Below the pieces are notes generated by a model. The model did not search any database. It saw nothing but the letters and a program-made list of their open reading frames with translations, and was not told the origin of the DNA. A program made the translations under genes and the position numbers. From assembly GCA_009781425.1 (NCBI GenBank), contig WQYC01000011.1, positions 1 to 64,000 on the forward strand: a stretch of DNA of 64,000 nucleotides. The letters run 5' to 3'. The first letter of the stretch is position 1; each line of letters starts with the position of its first letter. This document shows, piece by piece, positions 7,821 to 64,000 of the stretch. The DNA comes from Oscillospiraceae bacterium. GTDB taxonomy: Bacteria > Bacillota > Clostridia > Oscillospirales > Ruminococcaceae.

Positions 7821-8990
7821 CTACTCCTTACCTAATGAATCCATGAATTTGGATTTTAATATTTCAGTGATTCTTACTGCAAAGTTATCGTCGATTACCA
7901 CGACGTCGCCTCTTGCAATCAGATTGCCGTTGACTACTACGTCTACAGGGGCTCCCGCTTGTCTTTCAAGCTCGATTATTGTTCCCTGTGTGAAGTCTAA
8001 TATTTCCTTGACCTTGCGCTTAGCTGTACCGATTTCTACCGAGATTTGAAGCGGCACACCCATGAGAAGCTGTAGGTTCTCGCCTTGGTCGCTCTGTAAA
8101 TTGAAGGTCGGAACCTCAAACTGATGAAGCTGAGCGTTTTGTATGTTTACAGAGGGAGGCGGGTATCCGTAAGCCGGCGGGTATCCGTAGCCCGGAGGCG
8201 GTGCTCCCATTTGCATTGGCGGTGCTCCGTAAGGCATTGGCGCTCCTCCTTGTGGCATCATCATCTGCTGCTGCATCATTGGCTGCTGTTGCTGCATTGG
8301 CTGTTGCATCATCGGTTGTTGCTGAGGTGCTTGCTGGGCAGGCGCGGCAGCAGCGGGCGCAGGCGCAGGTGTGGGCGCAGGCTCGGGCTCGGGGTCGGGA
8401 TTAAGCATTTTGTCGCAAATAATCTGTGCTAAATCCGCGCTCATAACCGAAACGAACTCTGATTTTATGACGCCCTCGATAGTTATGTCGAAGGTGATTG
8501 CGATTACCTCTTCGTCCGTATCATAATCATGAACCTCAGATAACTTGATTTCATTCATTATATACGGTGTGGGCACTGAAATATCCACGTGCATTCCGAG
8601 AAAATTCGACAAGGCGGTAGCGGAGGAGCCCATCATCTGGTTCATAACCTCGCTCACTGCGCTGATATTAAGCTCATCGAACTCGAAATCGGGCGTAACC
8701 TCCAGCGGCTGACCCATGAGCTGATTCAAGATAAGCTGAACGTCGTCCTGCTTGAGAATCATCATGTTCGTGCCGGAAATACCCTTAATGTAGACAATTT
8801 TTACGCATATTGCAGGTTCGAGAGATTCCTTGCGAAGCTCTGCGGCTTTCTGTACGGACACGCGCGGCGTTGTAATCCACACCTTTGCGTTAAGCAGCTC
8901 TGATGCGGCTGTCGCGGCGTTGCCCATGCTTATGTTCATAACCTCCGCGATTGCATCCTTTTGCAAATCCGTAAATTCTATTGCAGCCAT
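7821..8990 (-). CDS. fliY: flagellar motor switch phosphatase FliY (CheC-like domain plus FliN domain)
   Basis: The protein has 389 residues. Residues about 1-195 form a CheC/CheX-like domain with two phosphatase-type motifs (E-V-M-N-I-S-M-G-N and E-V-M-N-Q-M-M-G-S). A linker very rich in Gln, Met and Pro follows (about 200-285). The last 90 residues are a SpoA/FliN domain (LQISVEIGTAKRKVKEIL). FliY forms the C-ring with FliM and dephosphorylates CheY-P. The low-complexity linker is longer than usual. Confidence 0.94.
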   Translation of the reverse strand: MAAIEFTDLQKDAIAEVMNISMGNAATAASELLNAKVWITTPRVSVQKAAELRKESLEPAICVKIVYIKGISGTNMMILKQDDVQLILNQLMGQPLEVTPDFEFDELNISAVSEVMNQMMGSSATALSNFLGMHVDISVPTPYIMNEIKLSEVHDYDTDEEVIAITFDITIEGVIKSEFVSVMSADLAQIICDKMLNPDPEPEPAPTPAPAPAAAAPAQQAPQQQPMMQQPMQQQQPMMQQQMMMPQGGAPMPYGAPPMQMGAPPPGYGYPPAYGYPPPSVNIQNAQLHQFEVPTFNLQSDQGENLQLLMGVPLQISVEIGTAKRKVKEILDFTQGTIIELERQAGAPVDVVVNGNLIARGDVVVIDDNFAVRITEILKSKFMDSLGKE

Positions 8991-12484: not shown

Positions 12485-14434
12485 TTAGCGTTTGAGGTTA
12501 ATCAGCTCTTCTAACATGGTGTCAGAAACAGTGATTATTCTCGAGTTCGCCTGGAATCCTCTCTGTGTTATAATCATGTTCGAGAATTCCTCGGAGAGGT
12601 CTACGTTCGCCATTTCGAGCGCGCCGGAAACTACCTCGCCTGCGCCGTCGTCGCCCGGGATTTTAACCTCTGCCTGACCCGAGGAGAGCGACTCTTTGTA
12701 GTAAGATGTTCCGAACTGCTGTAAGCCGTTGGCGTTCTGGAAGATTGCGAGGTCGATACGACCGAGGAGCAGTCTGCCGTGAACAGCGTGTTCGCCGTAG
12801 ATTACGCCGCCGGAGTCAATGAAGACTAAGTCAAGGTCACGGACTGTCTGAGGCCCTGCGAAGCGTCCGTTTTCCATTACGACTGTGCTCATGGACTGGA
12901 TTATAGAACGATAGAAGTTATCCTGTCCGCTGTGAAGCCCGATTCTTCTCGGGAGGTCGCCGATTACGTTTGACAACTGCTGACCTGCGGGAGGAGTAAC
13001 TGCACCCGTAACTGTAAGTCTGCGGTTTTGGTTTCCGCTTTCTAAGTCCCATGCTCCGCTGCCAAGTCTCGTCATGCCTGCCGCCGCGTTAATCGCGTCC
13101 TGAATCATTTCGTTGGTTACGTTTGCGCCTTCTCTGACTGTGACCGTAAGCACATTCTGCGCCCATTGTGCGCGGACTGCGGGAGCGTCAGCATTGTCGG
13201 TGGTTCTCATGTTTACTTCAAACGCGTTTGCATGGATTCCTGGGACTACAGCAGTGAACTCAAGTCTGCCCGCCGCGCCGAAGTTGAAGAAGTTGGAAGC
13301 GGGAATAGCCTGTGTGCTGGACGGGATACTGCTGAAATCTATGTTCAGAGGGAGAACGCCGTCACCCGGGTTTACGCCGCCGACTCTGATTGCGTCGTTT
13401 ACAGCCTGTTCAAAGCCGTTAGAGTTTCTGAAGTTCGTCGCAGGGCTGACAAGAGCGGCAGGGACAGCAAGTGCTGTTGCCGGAGGGGTAGCCGCCGCAC
13501 GAATCGAGTTTTCTGCTGCGATTGAGGGAAGTGCCGCTGCTATAATAGCATTAGCGTTACGAACTATTTCATCAAGCTGCGCTACAGTTGCATCAGCGGG
13601 AATGGTAGTGGGAGTAATCAGCGTAAGCGGTGACGCCGGTGCAGGAGTCATGTTGTTATATGCGGTGATTGCGGTATTTGCATCGGTGATTGCTGTACCT
13701 GCGGCGGTGATTGCGTTTGTTAAATCACCTGCAGTAATCGGAAGCGTATCAAGTGTAAGCGGGTAGTAGTCGAAGTTCTGCGTTAAGTCCATTTGTATGG
13801 TAAGCACCGAGCCGTTCATAGTTGCAAAAGGAACCTGGCTGTGCGTAATATTGAGTGCGATGTTGCCGTTCGGTCCGTAGCCTGACGCGCTGAATCTGAT
13901 TTCGTATTCAGAACCGTTGAATAAAACAGTGCGGTTTGAGCTTGCTTCTTCGTTCATGACGTCGGGAATGAAAAGATTGATTCTCTGGCTTCCGGGGCCC
14001 ATGCCTGTCGGATCGCCCGAAATTCCGAGAACTACGTAACCGTTGGAGTCAACAAGGTTTCCTGCGTTGTCTACGTTGAAGACGCCGTTTCTGGTGTAGT
14101 AGATATTTCCTGCCGCGTCCATAACCTGGAAGAAGCCTTCGCCTTTGATAGCACAGTCATAAACGCTGTCAGAGAAGGTAAAGCCCGACTGGGTCATAAC
14201 CTTGTCGATTGAACCGAGAGCAAGACCGTAACCGATTTGGCGGGGGTTTGTACCGCCGGATACGTTGTCGCCTGCAGAAGCGAAGCTTCTCGTCTGATAG
14301 AATACGTCTCTGAAGGTTACTGTGTTGCCTTTGTACGCCATTGTGTTTACGTTTGCGATGTTGTTACCTATTACGTCCATACGAACGGTATGGTTTTTAA
14401 GTCCGGAAACGCCGGAAAAAAGCGATTTCATCAT
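12485..14434 (-). CDS. flgE: flagellar hook protein FlgE
   Basis: This 649-residue hook subunit has the axial N-terminal motif (M-D-V-I-G-N-N-I-A-N-V-N-T-M-A-Y-K-G) and the C-terminal heptad region (N-V-D-L-S-E-E-F-S-N-M-I-I-T-Q-R-G-F-Q-A-N-S). These coiled-coil ends form the inner D0/D1 tube of the hook. The middle (about residues 200-520) is Ala/Pro/Thr-rich and longer than in B. subtilis; it would be surface-exposed. GAAAGGA lies upstream of the start. The 127-bp leader before it is unusually structured (see 14459-14543). Confidence 0.95.
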   Translation of the reverse strand: MMKSLFSGVSGLKNHTVRMDVIGNNIANVNTMAYKGNTVTFRDVFYQTRSFASAGDNVSGGTNPRQIGYGLALGSIDKVMTQSGFTFSDSVYDCAIKGEGFFQVMDAAGNIYYTRNGVFNVDNAGNLVDSNGYVVLGISGDPTGMGPGSQRINLFIPDVMNEEASSNRTVLFNGSEYEIRFSASGYGPNGNIALNITHSQVPFATMNGSVLTIQMDLTQNFDYYPLTLDTLPITAGDLTNAITAAGTAITDANTAITAYNNMTPAPASPLTLITPTTIPADATVAQLDEIVRNANAIIAAALPSIAAENSIRAAATPPATALAVPAALVSPATNFRNSNGFEQAVNDAIRVGGVNPGDGVLPLNIDFSSIPSSTQAIPASNFFNFGAAGRLEFTAVVPGIHANAFEVNMRTTDNADAPAVRAQWAQNVLTVTVREGANVTNEMIQDAINAAAGMTRLGSGAWDLESGNQNRRLTVTGAVTPPAGQQLSNVIGDLPRRIGLHSGQDNFYRSIIQSMSTVVMENGRFAGPQTVRDLDLVFIDSGGVIYGEHAVHGRLLLGRIDLAIFQNANGLQQFGTSYYKESLSSGQAEVKIPGDDGAGEVVSGALEMANVDLSEEFSNMIITQRGFQANSRIITVSDTMLEELINLKR

Positions 14435-14458
14435 AACTGATAAAGTCCTTTCTCATGC

Positions 14459-14543
14459 GCCGAACGACTCTCTTTTCTACCTATCAATCGGTCAAGGCAG
14501 AGAACATTCCCCGTTAGGGACCATGTTTTAATAGTTCGTCGGC
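14459..14543 (-). promoter_or_regulatory. structured 5' leader of flgE, candidate cis-regulatory RNA
   Basis: Reading the minus-strand RNA, GCCGACGA pairs with TCGTTCGGC (one bulge) and closes a loop of about 70 nt. Inside, ACAT..TCCC pairs with GGGA..ATGT around a short loop, and TCTCTGCCT can pair imperfectly with AGGTAGAAAAGAGA. This gives a three-way-junction-like fold ending about 24 bases before the flgE start. It does not match the GEMM c-di-GMP or other riboswitch consensus known to me. The pairing was found by eye; no covariation data are available. Confidence 0.4.
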
Positions 14544-14561
14544 TGTTATTAAATTTTAGTT

Positions 14562-14972
14562 TTACATGATTACTGTTGAATCAATGTTGGTAAATACGTT
14601 GCCCTTGAGCTCTTCCATTTCCATGGTTGTGATTACCTTGTTGTTAGGGACATTAACGATGAACGCCGTGGTGTCTACTAAGATTAACGTATCATTGCTT
14701 CCCTTTTCGGCGGCTACTCTGACTCCTTCATTTAGCCTTTCTAACTTTCCGTTCTCTACAATGTCTACGCTCCTGCTGTCAAGTCTGCGGATTGCGTGGT
14801 TTGAAAACTCGATTGCGCTTGTTTTTTCAAGCTTCTGCCTCAGCGCGTCCGCGAAGGACTGACCTTGCTCGTTAACCTCGGGAGTTGCAGGAACATTCGG
14901 CAATTGCGTGTCTTGCGGTTTATTAACACTTATTTGCTGACCGCGCAGTTTAAGAAAGTCATTTAACAGCAT
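14562..14972 (-). CDS. flagellar operon protein, TIGR02530 family
   Basis: This 136-residue protein lies between flgD and flgE, the usual place for the TIGR02530 family. The pattern FSNHAIRRLDSRSVDI, then L-E-R-L-N-E-G-V-R-V-A-A-E-K-G-S-N-D-T-L-I-L-V-D-T-T-A-F-I-V-N-V-P-N-N-K-V-I-T is typical. Its exact job is unknown; a role in hook assembly is assumed from gene order. No membrane segment or signal peptide is seen. Confidence 0.88.
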   Translation of the reverse strand: MLLNDFLKLRGQQISVNKPQDTQLPNVPATPEVNEQGQSFADALRQKLEKTSAIEFSNHAIRRLDSRSVDIVENGKLERLNEGVRVAAEKGSNDTLILVDTTAFIVNVPNNKVITTMEMEELKGNVFTNIDSTVIM

Positions 14973-14995
14973 CCTTGCTCACTCCTTTCTAATAG

Positions 14996-15778
14996 TTAGT
15001 AAATTAGCTGATTTAATTCCTCCGTGTAATTCTCAAGGTCTGAAATTAAGTCTGATTGTGCAGATTGTGCGTCCGGGTCTGCGGGTGGATTTGCCGCGGG
15101 CGGTTCTTCTACCGAGCCTTCGCCCGTCCAGTTGTCGTCATCGCCGGGGCCTTTTGCGCCTGCACCTTCGACTCTGAGCACGCTTGACAGCGGATACGCC
15201 TTGTCGTCGATGATTATGCTGATTTCGTTATCTCTGATTTCAAAGCGTGAAACGATTCCTGTTTCGGTAACTCTGACGCCTGTGTCGCTTCTGCCTGCAA
15301 TCGTGACCTTCATGCCTATGAGTGCGGCGGCGTAAGCTCCTTCGTTCCCTGTAATCGTGTAAGGGTTATGTGTCGGCAGGATTTCCATTATGCTCGAAAG
15401 CGGGTGGTCCTTGCCGTTGACTTTGAGGCTGAATTCGCCGTCCGTAACATTCATCGAGGTTACTATTCCGCTGACGAATCTTATGCCTGAGTTTCCGCTG
15501 TAGTCAGGGACTGTCACGGTTTTGCCTACTAACGACTGCGCGTAGTTCGCGTTTTGATAGTAGAGCGCGTCCTGCTGAGCCTTGAGTGCCGTAAAATTCG
15601 CTAAGCTGCCGATAAACTCTGTGTTTGACATGGGCTCGAGTGGGTCTTGGTTTGACATTTCAGCCATCAGCAGATTGAAGAAGTTTTCCATTGAGAAGGC
15701 GTCTTTGTCTTGCTTTGTAAAGTATTTCGCGAACCGTTCCCTATTCTCGGCAATATTTTGTGTACTGTTTACGCTCAT
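14996..15778 (-). CDS. flgD: flagellar hook assembly scaffold protein FlgD
   Basis: The protein has 260 residues. The N-terminal FlgD signature is clear (FFNLLMAEMSNQDPLEPMSN, then L-A-N-F-T-A-L). Two repeated beta-type modules follow (G-K-T-V-T-V-P-D and G-M-K-V-T-I-A-G-R), each ending in a H/Y-P-L-S-S motif, an internal duplication. The C-terminus is Pro/Asp-rich. FlgD caps the growing hook and is shed when FlgE polymerisation is complete. GGAGGA precedes the start. Confidence 0.93.
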   Translation of the reverse strand: MSVNSTQNIAENRERFAKYFTKQDKDAFSMENFFNLLMAEMSNQDPLEPMSNTEFIGSLANFTALKAQQDALYYQNANYAQSLVGKTVTVPDYSGNSGIRFVSGIVTSMNVTDGEFSLKVNGKDHPLSSIMEILPTHNPYTITGNEGAYAAALIGMKVTIAGRSDTGVRVTETGIVSRFEIRDNEISIIIDDKAYPLSSVLRVEGAGAKGPGDDDNWTGEGSVEEPPAANPPADPDAQSAQSDLISDLENYTEELNQLIY

Positions 15779-54048: not shown

Positions 54049-55728
54049 TTATCTCTTTCTGAACGCGCTCGGCAGGCACATCAGCGCGCCGCACAGAATC
54101 ACAACTGTTATAAGAATTATGTATTGATTCAATGTTTCGTTTATGTCGAGCTCGTTGTAGGCTTCGGCGAGTGTAGGGTGAATATCTTCTATATCAATCA
54201 CAATCGGCGGCGGCGGAAGCGGTGCAAAGGTATGCACGACCTCGGGATTCTCCGCTATCATGAGGTCTTTTATATACTGCTCGACAGACATTCCGAGAGC
54301 CGTGCCCATGCGGTCAAGATAAGTGCTGTTAAGCATTAGCTCGTATTCCGTCGGATTGCACATAAAGCCCATTTCAAACAGCATTGCCGCACCGCCCGTA
54401 TAGCGGGACATAGCAAAATTCTGCCGTCTGTGCCGCGGCTCGGGCGCGGCTTGCGTGAAAATGCTTACGCTGTCGTTAATGAGCGTAATCATACTGTCGG
54501 CGGCGCGCTCCGAGGTATCAAGCGTGTAAAACATTAAAGGCCCCGAAAGGCTCGAAAAGTCAGACGAGAGCGGCGCGGAATTGGCATGAACGCTGATGAT
54601 TACATCAGGCTCTAAGGAGAAAAACTCAACCCTGTCCATGATTTGCACAAAGTAGTCAATGTCGCGAATCAGCAGGACTTCAACGCCGAGCGTCCGCAGA
54701 TAGCTCTGCGCTGTCTGCGCTACGTATAAGTTAAAATCCTTTTCCATAGAGCCGAATTCACCGGGAGGACCCAGCGCGCCGGGGTCGCCGCCGCCGTGAC
54801 CGGCGTCAAGAAGCACGAAGGTTTCAGTAAGGCAGGTCGGCGCGAAGCGGAAGTCAATGTTCATCTTGCCGTCCGCGAAGCGCACGATGTATCCCGTCGG
54901 AATCCGCGCAAACTCGATGTCGTAAATTATTGCACTTGGCGCGAACTGCACATTTTTGCTTATTTCAGTTACATAAGACGCACCTGTTTGCAGGTTGCTC
55001 AAGTCCCTGTCGGCGTAAAGAATAAGCTCTGCGCTGTGCTCATTGAGCGTTATTTCATAAAGCGGGTTGTCCGTTACATCGAAGCTGACGGTGATTTTAT
55101 TGTTGCGGAAGCTGATTTCCCCGCCCGAAACAGTGAGTGAATTAATCGTTCTGCCGAGCTGATACACATGGTTCTTGAAAACCGCCGTATCGTCTGCAAG
55201 GAGATAATAGTCGCCGCGCTCGCCGATAATTTTGAAGGTCGTTCCGCTCATGAGTGGCGTTTTTCCGTGCAGGTCATCGTCGAAATAAGCAAAGCGCGGG
55301 ATATAATCCGCTTCAACCGAGCCGAAAATCGCTGTTGAATAATAAGTTGTTTCGGGCGCAGTCCAGTCGCCTGCCGCTTCCCGCGTTATTGTGATTATTT
55401 CCGAGTTCGTGCCGTTCACGAGCAGAAACTGATTCTCGCCGAGCGCGAGCTCGGCGTAATAAGTGAAGAAGCCGTTCGGCGTGGTTTTCACTTCCTCGCC
55501 GTTTATATAAAGCTTGTGCCGCGAGTCTGAGTCACCGAGGAAGCTCATGCGTGAGGACGTCGTAACTCGGCTGTTCTCGGCGGGGTGAGTTATGAACAGT
55601 GCTTCGCGGTCGTCATAGAAAATACGGCTTCTCGCAGAGTTGCTGACAGCACCCGCAGAAAAACCCATTAAAAAAATCATAAGTAACAGCGAAATAACAA
55701 TTTTTTTTATAATTCTCTTTGTTTTCAT
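54049..55728 (-). CDS. N-acetylmuramoyl-L-alanine amidase (Amidase_3) with C-terminal anchor
   Basis: The 559-residue protein has a signal peptide (about 1-27), an Ig/beta-type region, an AMIN-like part (about 205-300) and the zinc amidase domain from about 305 (D-A-G-H-G-G-G-D-P-G-A; M-E-K-D-F-N-L; V-H-A-N-S; L-F-E-M-G-F-M-C-N-P). The zinc ligands H, E, H and the catalytic E are all present. A membrane segment at the C-terminus ends in R-K-R. It would cut the peptide from peptidoglycan at the cell surface, with an unusual double anchoring. Confidence 0.9.
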   Translation of the reverse strand: MKTKRIIKKIVISLLLMIFLMGFSAGAVSNSARSRIFYDDREALFITHPAENSRVTTSSRMSFLGDSDSRHKLYINGEEVKTTPNGFFTYYAELALGENQFLLVNGTNSEIITITREAAGDWTAPETTYYSTAIFGSVEADYIPRFAYFDDDLHGKTPLMSGTTFKIIGERGDYYLLADDTAVFKNHVYQLGRTINSLTVSGGEISFRNNKITVSFDVTDNPLYEITLNEHSAELILYADRDLSNLQTGASYVTEISKNVQFAPSAIIYDIEFARIPTGYIVRFADGKMNIDFRFAPTCLTETFVLLDAGHGGGDPGALGPPGEFGSMEKDFNLYVAQTAQSYLRTLGVEVLLIRDIDYFVQIMDRVEFFSLEPDVIISVHANSAPLSSDFSSLSGPLMFYTLDTSERAADSMITLINDSVSIFTQAAPEPRHRRQNFAMSRYTGGAAMLFEMGFMCNPTEYELMLNSTYLDRMGTALGMSVEQYIKDLMIAENPEVVHTFAPLPPPPIVIDIEDIHPTLAEAYNELDINETLNQYIILITVVILCGALMCLPSAFRKR

Positions 55729-59236: not shown

Positions 59237-59250
59237 AATTATTCACTTCT

Positions 59251-59517
59251 TTAAAAAATCACCGGCTGCAGCTGCACTCCGCGCAGCGCGCTTTCGACCG
59301 CCTCAGGAATCTTCGCAAAGTCCGAAATAACCGATGTCGGCTTGTTCTGCGTGTCGTCCTGCCTGAGCGGCACGAAGAAATAATTCCGCAGGTTCATGAG
59401 GATTCCTATGTTCTTGGCAGAACCCGCGAGCGCGTCGTTGGTGGCGGCGCAGAGGAGAGCGGGGCGGTTGTTGCGTATGTGCGATTTTACTGCCATGGTT
59501 ACGGGGGTGGCGGTAGC
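59251..59517 (-). pseudogene. dpaB: dipicolinate synthase subunit B, 3' part only
   Basis: About 88 codons match the C-terminal half of DpaB/SpoVFB: A-T-P-V-T-M-A-V-K-S-H-I-R-N-N-R-P, then A-A-T-N-D-A-L, K-N-I-G-I-L-M, F-F-V-P-L-R-Q-D-D and L-Q-P-V-I-F. DpaA/DpaB make dipicolinic acid for the spore core. The flavin-binding N-terminal half is absent; homology ends abruptly at about 59517, where a TAA enters the frame. Directly upstream, in the same orientation, is a large serine recombinase, so the gene looks interrupted rather than decayed. Confidence 0.85.
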
Positions 59518-59603
59518 TTAGTAACGGAATACTCTCCGAATTAAAAAAGGCTGTATTGACCGCGCTTTTGACGATTTCGTAATAGGGCAAATTCACCAGT
59601 TCA
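59518..59603. other. candidate recombination junction (attachment site) between dpaB and the recombinase
   Basis: Eighty-six bp separate the dpaB homology end from the recombinase stop codon. An imperfect inverted repeat (CGGAATACTCTCCG) at about 59527-59540 fits the att half-site symmetry used by serine recombinases. The exact crossover cannot be set without the other junction. Confidence 0.45.
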
Positions 59604-61226
59604 CTATGAGTATTTGCCCACGAGAAAAAGAGAGGCTTTTTCCCCGTCCCAGACTGCTTTTGAGACGCATTTTTTGATATAATCCCGCTTCTCCGCCACA
59701 GAAAGCTTTCTGAACTCTTTTTTGAAGCTTTTCATAATGTCTTTGAGGCTTCCGAGCTCGGCTTGCAAGTCGGTTTTAACTTGATTCGCGAGCGCAAGCT
59801 TGTCATGCTCTGCTTGTAATCCCTTAATCTGCGCGTCAAGCTCGGGAATCCGCTTGTCGATGTAGGCTTCAGTGGCTTCATCAGGGCGTTTTGCAAGCTT
59901 GTCAACAAGTGAATTAATTTCTGAATTCTTGCCGTCAATGCTCTTCTGAATCCGCTCCATGTTCTCGTCGTAAGCGTCGCCCATTGACTTAATCTCGTCG
60001 CGCAGGGCTTCGAGCTGACCGCGGATATTCGCGTTAATTTTATTATAATTAAGCAGTTCTGTGCAGACAAGCTCGTCTAAAGTATTGCCGTTGACGTTGG
60101 AGTTGTGGCACTTTTTGCGGCGGGTTTTTTCTTTCGTTTCGCACATATAGACGAACGTGCGATTGCCGCTCGCGTCGACCCGCGTGTACTTCGGACGCAT
60201 ATATGAACCGCATTTGCACCTGACAACCCCTGAAAGTAGACAGTCGGAATTATGCACCTTCCGCTCGCTGAAGCTTTTATTTCCCTCAAGCGTGGCTTGG
60301 ACTTTCAGCCAGTCGGCGGAGCTGATAACTCCCTCGTGTGTCCCCACTGCAATTAACCATTCGTTCATGGGTTTCTTGTTACGCTTGTCGCTGCTGTCGG
60401 TTCGGTTGAACGGCATGAAGCCCGATTTGCCGTCAAGCTCATCAGATTGACAGCACAAAACGCAGTCTTTGTCGGAGAAATACTGATATGAGGCTTCGTC
60501 GGCGGTGCAATAAACAGGGTTAGTAAGAATCAGCTTTATAGTGAAAAGCGTTAGCTTTTTGCCGTTTTTGCTGTAGATGTCGTTGACTAAAAGATAGCGT
60601 TCGACCTGCGCGAGCGAACGAGTTTCAAGAAACTTTTCGTAGATTAATTTCACAAGCTTGACTTCCTCGGGATTGACCTGCAACCGCCAGCAGGAGCGGG
60701 TTTTGCCGTCAAATTCTATGTTGTCAACCTTTACGGGTTGAAAGCCTGTGGGGGCGGTTCCGCCGAGCCAACGCCCGTCACGGGCGAGCAGGTGGACGTT
60801 GTCGCGGACGCGTTCTGCGATTGTCTCGCGCTCTAATTGCGCAAAAACCGAGGCAATATACATCATCGCACGCCCCATCGGGGTCGAGGTGTCGAACTGC
60901 TCTTTTATGCAAATGAAGCTGACTTTTTGGGCATTTAATTGTTCAATCAGCGTCGCGAAATCGCCGACATTGCGGCTGATTCGGTCAAGGCGGTAAACGA
61001 CGATGTAGTCAAATTTTTGCTTTTCGTTGTCCGCAATCATCTGCTTGAAGCGCGGGCGGTCTAAGTTTTTCGCAGAATAGCCCTCGTCCTCGTAGACGAT
61101 GATTTCGGCGTTCTCGGAGCCAGAAATGTGCATTTTTATGTAAGCTCGGCACATCTCGATTTGGTTTTCGACGCTGTCGCCCTTGCCGGTGAATTTAGAT
61201 TTGCGGGAGTAGATTGCGATTTTCAT
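59604..61226 (-). CDS. large serine recombinase (SpoIVCA/resolvase family)
   Basis: The 540-residue protein starts at ATG 61224-61226 (AAGGAGGTGA upstream). The catalytic Ser7 in I-Y-S-R-K-S, the Y-R-L-D-R-I-S-R-N motif, a recombinase domain (G-G-T-A-P-T-G-F), zinc ribbon (C-K-C-G-S-Y-M, then C-E..C-H) and a coiled-coil C-terminus are all present. These enzymes integrate and excise large elements; SpoIVCA removes the skin element in Bacillus. It is transcribed toward the dpaB fragment from a consensus sigma-A promoter. Confidence 0.93.
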   Translation of the reverse strand: MKIAIYSRKSKFTGKGDSVENQIEMCRAYIKMHISGSENAEIIVYEDEGYSAKNLDRPRFKQMIADNEKQKFDYIVVYRLDRISRNVGDFATLIEQLNAQKVSFICIKEQFDTSTPMGRAMMYIASVFAQLERETIAERVRDNVHLLARDGRWLGGTAPTGFQPVKVDNIEFDGKTRSCWRLQVNPEEVKLVKLIYEKFLETRSLAQVERYLLVNDIYSKNGKKLTLFTIKLILTNPVYCTADEASYQYFSDKDCVLCCQSDELDGKSGFMPFNRTDSSDKRNKKPMNEWLIAVGTHEGVISSADWLKVQATLEGNKSFSERKVHNSDCLLSGVVRCKCGSYMRPKYTRVDASGNRTFVYMCETKEKTRRKKCHNSNVNGNTLDELVCTELLNYNKINANIRGQLEALRDEIKSMGDAYDENMERIQKSIDGKNSEINSLVDKLAKRPDEATEAYIDKRIPELDAQIKGLQAEHDKLALANQVKTDLQAELGSLKDIMKSFKKEFRKLSVAEKRDYIKKCVSKAVWDGEKASLFLVGKYS

Positions 61227-61249
61227 GAGGTTCACCTCCTTCTGATTTA

Positions 61250-61278
61250 ATTATAAAGGGTGAATTTGGGGTTGTCAA
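61250..61278 (-). promoter_or_regulatory. sigma-A-like promoter of the recombinase gene
   Basis: TTGACA (61273-61278) and TATAAT (61250-61255) on the minus strand, 17 bp apart, both perfect. Vegetative expression is therefore expected; no sigma-E/K-like sequence was noticed. Confidence 0.75.
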
Positions 61279-61309
61279 GTGACGGTATTTCTTTTTATGA
61301 TAAAAAATG

Positions 61310-61365
61310 TTGACATTTAATAAATATAGAGATATAATAAGTATTAGTTGTTAGTTGACAACTAA
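61310..61365 (+). promoter_or_regulatory. promoter and operator of the XRE-hsdM-hsdS operon
   Basis: TTGACA (61310-61315) and TATAAT (61333-61338), 17 bp apart. Just downstream TTAGTTGT (61344-61351) and ACAACTAA (61358-61365) form a perfect inverted repeat, with a second overlapping one (TTAGTTG/CAACTAA around 61358). This layout is typical of autoregulated controller proteins of restriction-modification systems. Confidence 0.8.
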
Positions 61366-61389
61366 TATTTACAGAGGGGAGAAATCTCA

Positions 61390-61722
61390 TTGCCGGTAAC
61401 CACAATTAAAAAGAAAACTCTTGGCAAACAAATAAAAAAGCAACGCGAAAAAGAAAAGCTCTCGCAACGGCAGGCTGCATTAAAATGCGACATTACTCCC
61501 GCTTCTTTTCATGATATTGAGAAGGGTATTATATTTCCAAGCGAAAAAACATTTCTTAATTTGATTGAAAAATTAAATTTTGATAATAAACCTAAAATAT
61601 GCGATATATATGCAAAATTAAAAGAAACAATCCCTCCGGATGTTGTTAAATACTTATATGAAAACCCTTCGGTTGTGGATGATATTCGGCAACGAATGAA
61701 AATTCAAGAAGAAAAGAGGTAA
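61390..61722 (+). CDS. XRE-family controller protein of the restriction-modification locus
   Basis: The 110-residue protein has a TTG start at 61390 with GAGGGGAG upstream. The HTH (K-L-S-Q-R-Q-A-A-L-K-C-D-I-T-P-A-S-F-H-D-I-E-K-G) is clear, and the C-terminal part is longer than in minimal controllers. It lies 7 bp before hsdM, so it very likely controls this operon by binding the palindrome at 61344-61365. Confidence 0.85.
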   Translation: MPVTTIKKKTLGKQIKKQREKEKLSQRQAALKCDITPASFHDIEKGIIFPSEKTFLNLIEKLNFDNKPKICDIYAKLKETIPPDVVKYLYENPSVVDDIRQRMKIQEEKR

Positions 61723-61729
61723 AAACACT

Positions 61730-63442
61730 GTGAGCATTACAGAAGTAGCCAATTTTATATGGAGCGTAGCTGATTTATTGCGCGGCAACTTTAAACAAGG
61801 CGAATACGGAAAGGTAATTCTTCCGTTTACGGTGCTGCGGAGGTTCGACTGCGTACTCGCTCCTTCGAAAGATAAAATCCTCGAAATGAATAAAACTTTA
61901 ACTGTCAGCAACAAAACACCAGTTTTCAAGCGACTCACAGGGCATGATTATTACAATGTCAGCCGATTTGATTTCGAGAAGTTGCTCGACGACTCAAACT
62001 CGATTGAAACTAACCTGCGAGATTATATTAACAGCTTCTCGGAGGACGTGAAAGAAATCCTTGATAATTTCGAGCTGGGCACAGTTATAGAGCGGCTCAA
62101 AAAAGCTAATCTACTTTATCTGATTATACAGAAATTCAATGAAATCGACCTTGCCGCCTCAACCGTCGACAACCTTGAAATGGGGTATATGTTCGAGGAG
62201 CTTATCCGCAGGTTTTCGGAACAATCGAACGAAACCGCGGGCGAACACTTCACGCCCAGAGAGGTCATAGAGTTGATGGTAGAGTTGCTTGTCGAGCCAG
62301 ACCTGACAGACGAACTCACTAAAGACGGTATAGTTAAAACCATATTCGACCCGGCATGCGGCACGGGCGGAATGCTCTCAGTAGCACAAAACATGATGCG
62401 GGCTGTCAACACAAGTTTGACAATTATCCCATTTGGGCAGGAGCTGAACCCCGAAACCTATGCGACCTGTAAATCGGACATGATTTTGAAAGGTAATGAT
62501 AACAGCAAGATTGTACTGGGCAACAGCTTTTCGGAGGACGGCTTTATAGGTCAGACCTTTGATTATATGCTGACTAACCCACCTTTCGGTGTGGAGTGGA
62601 AGAAAGTCGAGAAGTTCGTCAAGGACGAGGCGGCTAATCTCGGACACGGCGGGCGTTTCGGTGCAGGGACTCCGAGGATTTCTGATGGCTCGTTATTATT
62701 TTTGCAACACATGATTAACAAGATGACTCCCGCCGATAAAGGCGGAAGCAGAATTGGTATCGTCTTTAACGGCTCTCCTCTGTTTACAGGGGACGCAGGT
62801 TCCGGGGAAAGCGAAATCCGCCGCTGGATTATCGAAAATGACCTGCTTGAAGCAGTCGTTGCACTGCCAGACCAGCTTTTCTACAACACGGGGATTAGCA
62901 CATACATCTGGATTCTTACCAACCGCAAGACCGCCCGACGCAAGGGGAAAATCCGCCTTGTGAACGGCGTGTCGTTCTATGAGAAAATGCGGAAATCCCT
63001 CGGAAACAAGCGTAATCTCATCGAGAAGTCTATGCGTGATGAAATCGTGCGGCTGTATTCCATGCACGAACCCGACGAGAACTACATCGACTTTGATAAT
63101 GCCGACTTCGGCTACAACAAAATCACCGTTGAACGCCCTTTGTTGGACGAGAATGGCGTGGCTGTTACTGACAAGAAGGGGCAGGTCAAGCCCGACTCCG
63201 CTCTCCGTGATACCGAGACCGTTCCCCTCGAAGAAGACATTCACGCTTATTTCGAGCGGGAGGTGCTGCCGCACGTCCCTGATGCGTGGATTGACGAGAG
63301 CAAGACGAAAATCGGCTACGAAATCCCGTTTACCCGCCACTTCTACAAGTTCACACCGTTACGCCCGTCTGCGGAGATTATGGGCGAGATTAAGGCTTTG
63401 GAAGCAAAGATTGCGGCGGGACTGGCGGAGGTGGGGGTATGA
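61730..63442 (+). CDS. hsdM: type I restriction-modification DNA methylase subunit M
   Basis: The 570-residue protein starts at GTG 61730. It has the N-terminal HsdM helical domain and the adenine-methylase motifs F-D-P-A-C-G-T-G-G-M (motif I) and N-P-P-F-G (motif IV), with the Q-E-L-N-P-E-T segment between. It methylates adenine with the HsdS specificity subunit. The 3' end overlaps hsdS by four bases (ATGA). hsdR is not in the window but would be expected downstream. Confidence 0.94.
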   Translation: MSITEVANFIWSVADLLRGNFKQGEYGKVILPFTVLRRFDCVLAPSKDKILEMNKTLTVSNKTPVFKRLTGHDYYNVSRFDFEKLLDDSNSIETNLRDYINSFSEDVKEILDNFELGTVIERLKKANLLYLIIQKFNEIDLAASTVDNLEMGYMFEELIRRFSEQSNETAGEHFTPREVIELMVELLVEPDLTDELTKDGIVKTIFDPACGTGGMLSVAQNMMRAVNTSLTIIPFGQELNPETYATCKSDMILKGNDNSKIVLGNSFSEDGFIGQTFDYMLTNPPFGVEWKKVEKFVKDEAANLGHGGRFGAGTPRISDGSLLFLQHMINKMTPADKGGSRIGIVFNGSPLFTGDAGSGESEIRRWIIENDLLEAVVALPDQLFYNTGISTYIWILTNRKTARRKGKIRLVNGVSFYEKMRKSLGNKRNLIEKSMRDEIVRLYSMHEPDENYIDFDNADFGYNKITVERPLLDENGVAVTDKKGQVKPDSALRDTETVPLEEDIHAYFEREVLPHVPDAWIDESKTKIGYEIPFTRHFYKFTPLRPSAEIMGEIKALEAKIAAGLAEVGV

Positions 63443-64000
63443 AGCGATACGCGGAATACAAAGACAGCGGAGTTGAGTGGATAGGCGAGATTCCTGTTGA
63501 TTGGGATAGGACAAAGTTAAAAAATTTACTTGCTACACCGATAACAGACGGGCCACATGAAACACCGGAGATACTTGACGAGGGAATACCGTTTTTATCA
63601 GCAGAAGCTGTAAAGAATTTGAAGTTGAATTTCGATTTAAAGCGTGGTTATATCTCGCAGAACGAACACGAGCGGTTTTGTTTGAAGTGTAAACCTCAAC
63701 GCGGCGACATATTTATGATTAAATCGGGAGCGACTACTGGCAATATCGCGATGGTTGAAACAGACGAAGAATTTAGTGTATGGTCGCCGTTAGCACTTAT
63801 TAGGTGCAATGAAAATAAGATTGATAGATACTATATGTTTTTGTTTCTGCAATCATTTATATTCAGGCGGCAGGTTAAACTTTTTTGGAGCTATGGGACA
63901 CAACAAAATATCGGCATGGGGGTTCTCGGAAATCTATTCGTTGCGTATCCAGATGTTGAGACTCAAAGGCGTATCGCCGACTACCTCGACCGCCGCACTT
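63439..64000 (+). CDS. hsdS: type I restriction-modification specificity subunit S, partial
   Basis: The first 187 codons are present; the gene runs off the right edge. The N-terminus M-K-R-Y-A-E-Y-K-D-S-G-V-E-W-I-G-E-I-P is a typical HsdS opening, followed by the first target recognition domain and a conserved helix (P-D-V-E-T-Q-R-R-I-A-D-Y-L-D). It would decide the DNA target of HsdM (and HsdR). Confidence 0.9.
   Translation, partial: MKRYAEYKDSGVEWIGEIPVDWDRTKLKNLLATPITDGPHETPEILDEGIPFLSAEAVKNLKLNFDLKRGYISQNEHERFCLKCKPQRGDIFMIKSGATTGNIAMVETDEEFSVWSPLALIRCNENKIDRYYMFLFLQSFIFRRQVKLFWSYGTQQNIGMGVLGNLFVAYPDVETQRRIADYLDRRT

Follow-up and report, generated by a model that had tools for sequence, protein, structure and literature searches.

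In Bacillus subtilis 168, two insertions in sporulation genes are on record in the accounts available to us, skin in sigK and SPbeta in spsM. A sigK insertion of Bacillus cereus carries a type I restriction-modification (RM) system, and the gerE element gin carries an RM system as well, according to the available portions of PMC10745906 and PMC5595907. The gene studied here, spoVFB (dpaB), is interrupted by the excisable element vfbin in Bacillus weihenstephanensis KBAB4, as outlined in the accessible text of PMC4191935, PMC10747680, and PMC6957869. As to the control of excision, the passages of PMC5025042 at hand describe the recombinase of the C. difficile skin element, CD1231, as driven by sigma-A and present also in vegetative cells, and a small recombination directionality factor (RDF), CD1234, made under sigma-E and SpoIIID, as the component that limits excision to the mother cell.

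Here, we analyzed a 64,000-nucleotide stretch of DNA from an Oscillospiraceae bacterium (the window; positions 1 to 64,000 of contig WQYC01000011.1, here C11, which is 67,882 bp long and belongs to a draft assembly of 67 contigs). Toward its right end, the 3' half of dpaB meets a large serine recombinase gene, followed by the start of a type I RM operon. We consider it probable that this part of the window is one end of a skin-type intervening element in dpaB, which would be excised to provide the mother cell with DpaB. The locus was compared across a genus sample of 71 genomes, including that of the window (G000).

The dpaB junction and its attachment sites

Positions 105-194 of the profile NF006161 matched at 59248-59517 on the minus strand (E = 6.6e-29). 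A search with TIGR02852 agreed, and with both profiles this 3' half was the sole dpaB match in the whole genome of the window. As the original prediction had stated for the C-terminal half of DpaB, the match stops sharply: the dpaB-derived sequence begins at an AC dinucleotide (59508-59507, minus strand), located 11-12 bp upstream of an internal ATG and inside the codons for ITDT/PVT. From this AC core of ITDT/PVTMAVKSH, the 3' half runs to its stop codon as an intact ORF (59251..59508, minus strand; delimited by NF006161 and the junction alignment). The junction is real, and it is not a product of chance because partial dpaB matches are split at the same place in 8/71 genomes of the genus.

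Full-length dpaB, taken as a match over the family cut-off, was found in 49 of the 71 genomes, in support of the original prediction, which had proposed a search for intact copies elsewhere in the genus; 14 of the 71 had no dpaB match at 1e-10. One genome (G449) has two full dpaB-dpaA copies with identical scores on contigs C70 and C72, possibly reflecting a duplicated contig. In a survey of the order, 331 of 394 genomes had a dpaB match at 1e-10. Among the matches listed, a genome from another family of the order (G083) shows two partial dpaB matches (best 1.4e-29) and is a possible further case of split dpaB outside the genus.

Each of the eight split genomes has a homologous recombinase gene immediately upstream of its dpaB 3' half and in the same orientation. 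Five of them contain both halves (G004, G017, G033, G418, and G433), and the 3' half alone was found in the other three (G000, G022, and G422), where profile searches detected neither a dpaB 5' half nor a dpaA family match. The two halves lie on one contig and strand at a distance of ~7.3 kb in G433 and ~39.8 kb in G418; the intervening stretch of the latter also holds what we take, from inspection of the sequence, to be a polysaccharide gene cluster. In G017 (L035, C2:31001-51000), the halves are on one contig, 8.8 kb apart, and on opposite strands, which is due to either an inversion or a misassembly.

In relatives, dpaB has ITDTPVTMAVKSH or a close variant at this place. The dpaB 5' halves match these relatives through ITDT and then diverge, and the 3' halves rejoin the dpaB of relatives at PVT in 7/8 cases (AVT in G422). 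Alignment of eight attR and five attL sequences (G000, G022, and G422 contributing attR alone) places the common AC core at codon positions 1 and 2 of the second Thr. The P and P' arms, which carry GGT and GGAA motifs, flank this core symmetrically and form an attP dyad with it. In the window, attR extends over 59480..59545 (minus strand; arm extents are approximate), and comprises the P arm (59509-59545), the AC core (59508-59507), and the B' arm within dpaB. Joining the halves in silico at the 2-bp core yielded an uninterrupted DpaB of 192-197 amino acids with ITDTPVTMAVKSH in 5/5 genomes; the halves thus rejoin in frame wherever both are assembled, in keeping with the original prediction of a gene that could be restored.

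The dpaB 3' halves are open ORFs with no frameshift or stop in any of the eight split genomes. The recombinases of G033 and G418 are nearly identical despite a dS of ~1.6 between their dpaB 3' halves, and therefore the element has moved recently between hosts. Because of this movement, the omega ratios (0.06-0.17 in pairs with a split dpaB for which dS was computable, similar to the 0.06-0.13 of intact pairs) say little about the time since insertion, and dN/dS was discarded as proof of function after insertion. Each of the eight split genomes matched spoVAD or spoIVA, with spoVAD matched in 6/8 and spoIVA in 6/8.

Recombinase, cargo, and possible control of excision

The recombinase gene (59604..61235, minus strand) encodes a 543 amino acid protein with the Pfam domains Resolvase, Recombinase, and Zn_ribbon_recom, and is located directly upstream of the dpaB 3' half in the same orientation, as originally predicted. 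The strong sigma-A-type promoter ascribed to it was also found (61250..61278, minus strand): TTGACA-17-TATAAT at 61278-61250 matches the consensus at 12/12 positions. A second perfect sigma-A-type promoter (61310..61338, plus strand), called like the first by consensus match alone, points toward an operon divergent from the recombinase. This operon comprises genes for an XRE-type helix-turn-helix protein (61390..61722; Pfam HTH_31 and HTH_3), the type I methyltransferase HsdM (61730..63442; Pfam N6_Mtase and HsdM_N; PADLOC MTase_I, E = 2.3e-259), and the type I specificity subunit HsdS (63439..64000, continuing to contig position 64722; PADLOC Specificity_I, 2.4e-107), all on the plus strand, and the Pfam domains bear out the XRE-hsdM-hsdS order that had been read from the sequence. 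Beyond the window follows hsdR (64722-67709; PADLOC REase_I, 6.3e-41), and the contig ends 173 bp past it. Together, hsdM, hsdS, and hsdR constitute a predicted type I RM system. No phage structural genes were found among the genes assembled at 59509-67882, the assembled part of the element.

Regarding the cargo of other dpaB elements, that of G022 again comprises type I RM genes, encoding a 571 amino acid protein matching both methyltransferase and specificity models and a 669 amino acid hsdR-like part (PADLOC), that of G433 encodes a type III methyltransferase, and the left end of the G033 element carries PDC-M12A/B genes. The view that RM genes are an unusual passenger, expressed in the original prediction, had to be given up for type I RM cargo because the B. 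cereus sigK insertion and gin already have RM systems, according to the portions of PMC10745906 and PMC5595907 available.

The recombinases of six other dpaB elements are 40-51% identical to that of the window. We used an alignment of seven dpaB recombinases as the query of a homologue scan across named genomes, and analyzed the best 80 among 536 confirmed homologues. Among these best 80 of 536, a sigK half lies within 600 bp in 67/80, a dpaB 3' half in 4/80, and neither in 9/80; at the last nine loci, a sigK 5' half is 1.1-2.7 kb away in three and none is present in six. The prevalence of sigK beside the nearest homologues agrees with the skin-type serine-recombinase element originally predicted in dpaB. 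The layout is also that found at dpaB, since the sigK 3' half lies on the same strand 2-251 bp downstream in 59/80 of the best 80 of 536 homologues; the sigK 5' half is the adjoining one in 8/80. With a cut-off of 3,500 bp, 70/76 loci are sigK-linked. The gene at these loci was recognized by eye and is presumably sigK, and some could be a relative such as sigE; a gene divided at a single point is, however, the mark expected of skin elements, which could favor its identity as sigK.

In trees of 86 rows (L111, L144, L155, and L167 dropped as duplicates of G422, G004, G022, and G433) and of 83 rows (L157 and two outgroups left out as well), the eight dpaB recombinases form one clade beside seven sigK-linked ones, with SH-aLRT values from a quick method of 87 and 94, which are under the 95 mark and not conclusive. 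The simplest reading of the recombinase tree suggests a single change of target from sigK to dpaB.

The sigma-A promoter had been counted in the original prediction as an argument against regulated excision. It is no evidence against regulation because CD1231 is itself driven by sigma-A and its RDF sets the timing, as described in the available text of PMC5025042. By analogy, the promoter of the window's recombinase fits the C. difficile skin scheme, under which the recombinase would be made constitutively and excision would await an RDF that the mother cell produces. If so, dpaB would be rebuilt solely in the mother cell, which dies, and the spore would retain the element together with its type I RM cargo.

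A search for an RDF among small ORFs gave weak candidates only, neither of them general across elements. One is a double-HTH ORF situated just behind attL in the orientation of dpaB in G004, G033, and G418 (3/5 attL); G026 has a distantly related ORF close to its sigK 3' half (E = 2.5e-10). As a speculation, read-through of dpaAB into this ORF would tie excision to dpaAB transcription. The other is an ORF of 45-61 amino acids common to the G033, G418, and G433 elements. Several further small-ORF matches shared between elements look like shadow ORFs of the recombinase.

The locus in the window's genome and other interrupted sporulation genes

Synteny was analyzed over 40 loci taken from the 49 genomes with full-length dpaB. 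A gene for a CwlD-like amidase lies 3' of the dpaB half in the window, outside the element (54049..55728, minus strand; TIGR02883, E = 1.4e-20), and the same family is found downstream of intact dpaB in G423 and G026. Two gene families, which from their appearance we take to resemble uxaC and uxuA, precede dpaA in G026, G412, G423, G012, and G420, as well as in the split genome G017. Such shared neighbors in relatives place the window's dpaB half at the ancestral locus. In G000, the uxuA- and uxaC-like genes are on contig C43 and are followed by a dpaA that is cut after about codon 65 (at about 3620-3830 of L090, C43:12001-21620); the genes after the break presumably encode a resolvase, a relaxase, and TraG.

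The remaining stretch of ~1 kb, comprising the dpaA 3' part and the dpaB 5' half, was not found in the G000 assembly, and C11 finishes at 67,882 without a dpaB 5' half. The lack of a 5' half beyond the element had been named in the original prediction as a finding that would speak against it. This lack stands for the assembly, but not necessarily for the chromosome: both contig ends are in mobile DNA, so that a gap and a deletion are both possible. No contig-end overlap was found for C11. The end of C43 overlaps C51 by 123 bp, a join that we left unused as family searches place neither dpaA nor dpaB on C51. The dpaA break was also ruled out as the attL of the element, since it has no P' arm motif.

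It is quite possible, if short of probable, that the element belongs to the skin-type class and that the copy in G000 is dead, the dpaA 3' part and dpaB 5' half having been deleted, the element locked in, and no DPA being made by this route. Such a loss would account for the ~1 kb missing from the interval that the dpaA break and the dpaB core delimit and for a dpaA break that lacks the P' arm of the element; the same facts, however, are explained by a separate element in dpaA together with a short contig that was left unassembled or unbinned, and the remaining dpaB 3' half is open and conserved. A dead copy overlaps with the favored explanation, and the two are not mutually exclusive.

Further sporulation genes are disrupted in the genus, as seen in a survey of five sporulation families over the 71 genomes, which had no control genes and whose counts give no reading of enrichment. 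In G000, a sigK 5' half (positions 2-115, ending in STYASKCIDK; 4393-4785 of L199, C3:96001-102793) is convergent with a 532 amino acid serine-recombinase-like ORF of another subfamily (4748-6346 of L199). The sigK 3' half was not seen among the matches listed for this genome, where a weak one is possible. G026 shows a similar sigK arrangement in L200, and its sigK 3' half is located in L201. In G000, an insert of ~17 kb also interrupts spoIVA at about residue 400 (parts at 2-370 and 17587-17868 of L097, C24:1-19500, and in L098, C3:1-3000). This insert carries AbiEi/AbiEii and a gene resembling those of serine recombinases, in addition to a second full type I RM system; the first part of this spoIVA is also broken by contig ends. 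In G020, L108 (C40:1001-17566) contains a full spoIVA and, ~5 kb away, a repeat of its ~95 C-terminal residues (13647-15161 and 7984-8277), an arrangement resembling that left by an insertion supplying a 3' end of its own.

The spoVAD gene is split near residue 196 (at NMG) in G412 (L100, L101), G426 (L102, L103), and G425 (L104, L105), and G006 (L106, L107) has a spoVAD 3' part and a contig-edge 5' fragment. Judged by eye, the gene beside the split spoVAD of G412 and G426 is presumably serine-recombinase-like, and one near spoVAD in G426 and G006 appears phage-terminase-like. spoVAD is a forespore gene in B. subtilis, and a split copy could be restored only by excision in a compartment other than the mother cell; otherwise, it would mean loss of the gene. 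In addition, dpaA is cut in G003 (L091, on its contig C7) and G424 (L092, on its contig C11), at about profile positions 130 and 268, respectively, beside serine-recombinase-like genes of other subfamilies; neither genome has a dpaB match at 1e-10.

We tentatively propose that several late sporulation genes of this genus may serve as landing sites for different site-specific elements, with at least three interrupted at once in G000 (dpaB, sigK, and spoIVA), its dpaA broken, and two inserts each carrying a complete type I RM system that differs from the other. If all the inserts of G000 are still excised, a separate recombination would be needed in the mother cell for each of several genes, and its restriction systems would be lost as the genes are restored, whereas the spore would keep them all.

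These interruptions, spoVAD as a forespore gene among them, would also be compatible with an ordinary integrative defense island for which dpaB is a conserved landing site that becomes inactivated, excision serving transfer, in lineages that are losing DPA or sporulation. The three split genomes without a dpaB 5' half or a dpaA match, the truncated dpaA of the window's genome, the defense genes in the cargo, and the recent transfer between hosts point the same way. We nevertheless regard such an island as rather unlikely, given that the recombinase family is mostly found in sigK, a gene known to be freed of its element by developmental excision in C. difficile, that none of the eight dpaB 3' halves has acquired a frameshift or stop, and that all eight split genomes retain spoVAD or spoIVA. 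Finally, a misassembly of this metagenome-derived or draft genome, for which its 67 contigs and the opposite-strand halves of G017 could be cited, is a highly improbable source of the junction, since the same junction and att structure recur in eight genomes and the downstream synteny agrees with that of intact relatives.

Comparison with described intervening elements

Returning to the skin-type element in dpaB, a literature search that covered few subscription papers turned up no dpaB element described from Clostridia and no single genome of the kind of G000 with interruptions in several such genes. An insertion in dpaB (vfbin) and type I RM cargo are both already in print, as far as the available texts go, and the clostridial dpaB element is a variant of what they describe. 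It places dpaB elements in clostridia, the one described earlier in those texts being from Bacillus, and cells with a split dpaB may have to cut the element out when making spores. The results further suggest that the skin recombinase family apparently switched its target from sigK to dpaB, a change for which attB, the attP dyad, and the 2-bp core can be tested in vitro. Two more general questions also become testable, namely whether sporulation genes are favored as targets because the excising cell dies anyway, and what the outcome is for a split gene of the forespore.

Among the known systems, the C. difficile skin element resembles that of the window in that it encodes a large serine recombinase under a sigma-A promoter and interrupts a sporulation gene of the mother cell (PMC5025042, in the part available), and the window's recombinase falls among sigK-linked homologues, the likeness to CD1231 itself being drawn from its description. 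The two differ in their target, which is sigK in C. difficile and dpaB here. In contrast, vfbin shares the target gene and differs in its Bacillus host and its phage-like nature, a comparison based on how citing papers describe it. Yin, in yabG of Clostridium botulinum, is likewise a serine-recombinase element in a clostridial late sporulation gene, but it is prophage-like, occupies another gene, and is described in one strain in the available text of PMC10747680. Island IV (in sigK of Bacillus cereus biovar anthracis) and gin (in gerE of B. cereus ATCC10987) are, by their description in the accessible parts of PMC10745906 and PMC5595907, non-phage elements with RM cargo that are excised during sporulation; they differ from the dpaB element in target gene and host, and the cargo of Island IV is a type I RM system, as in the window.
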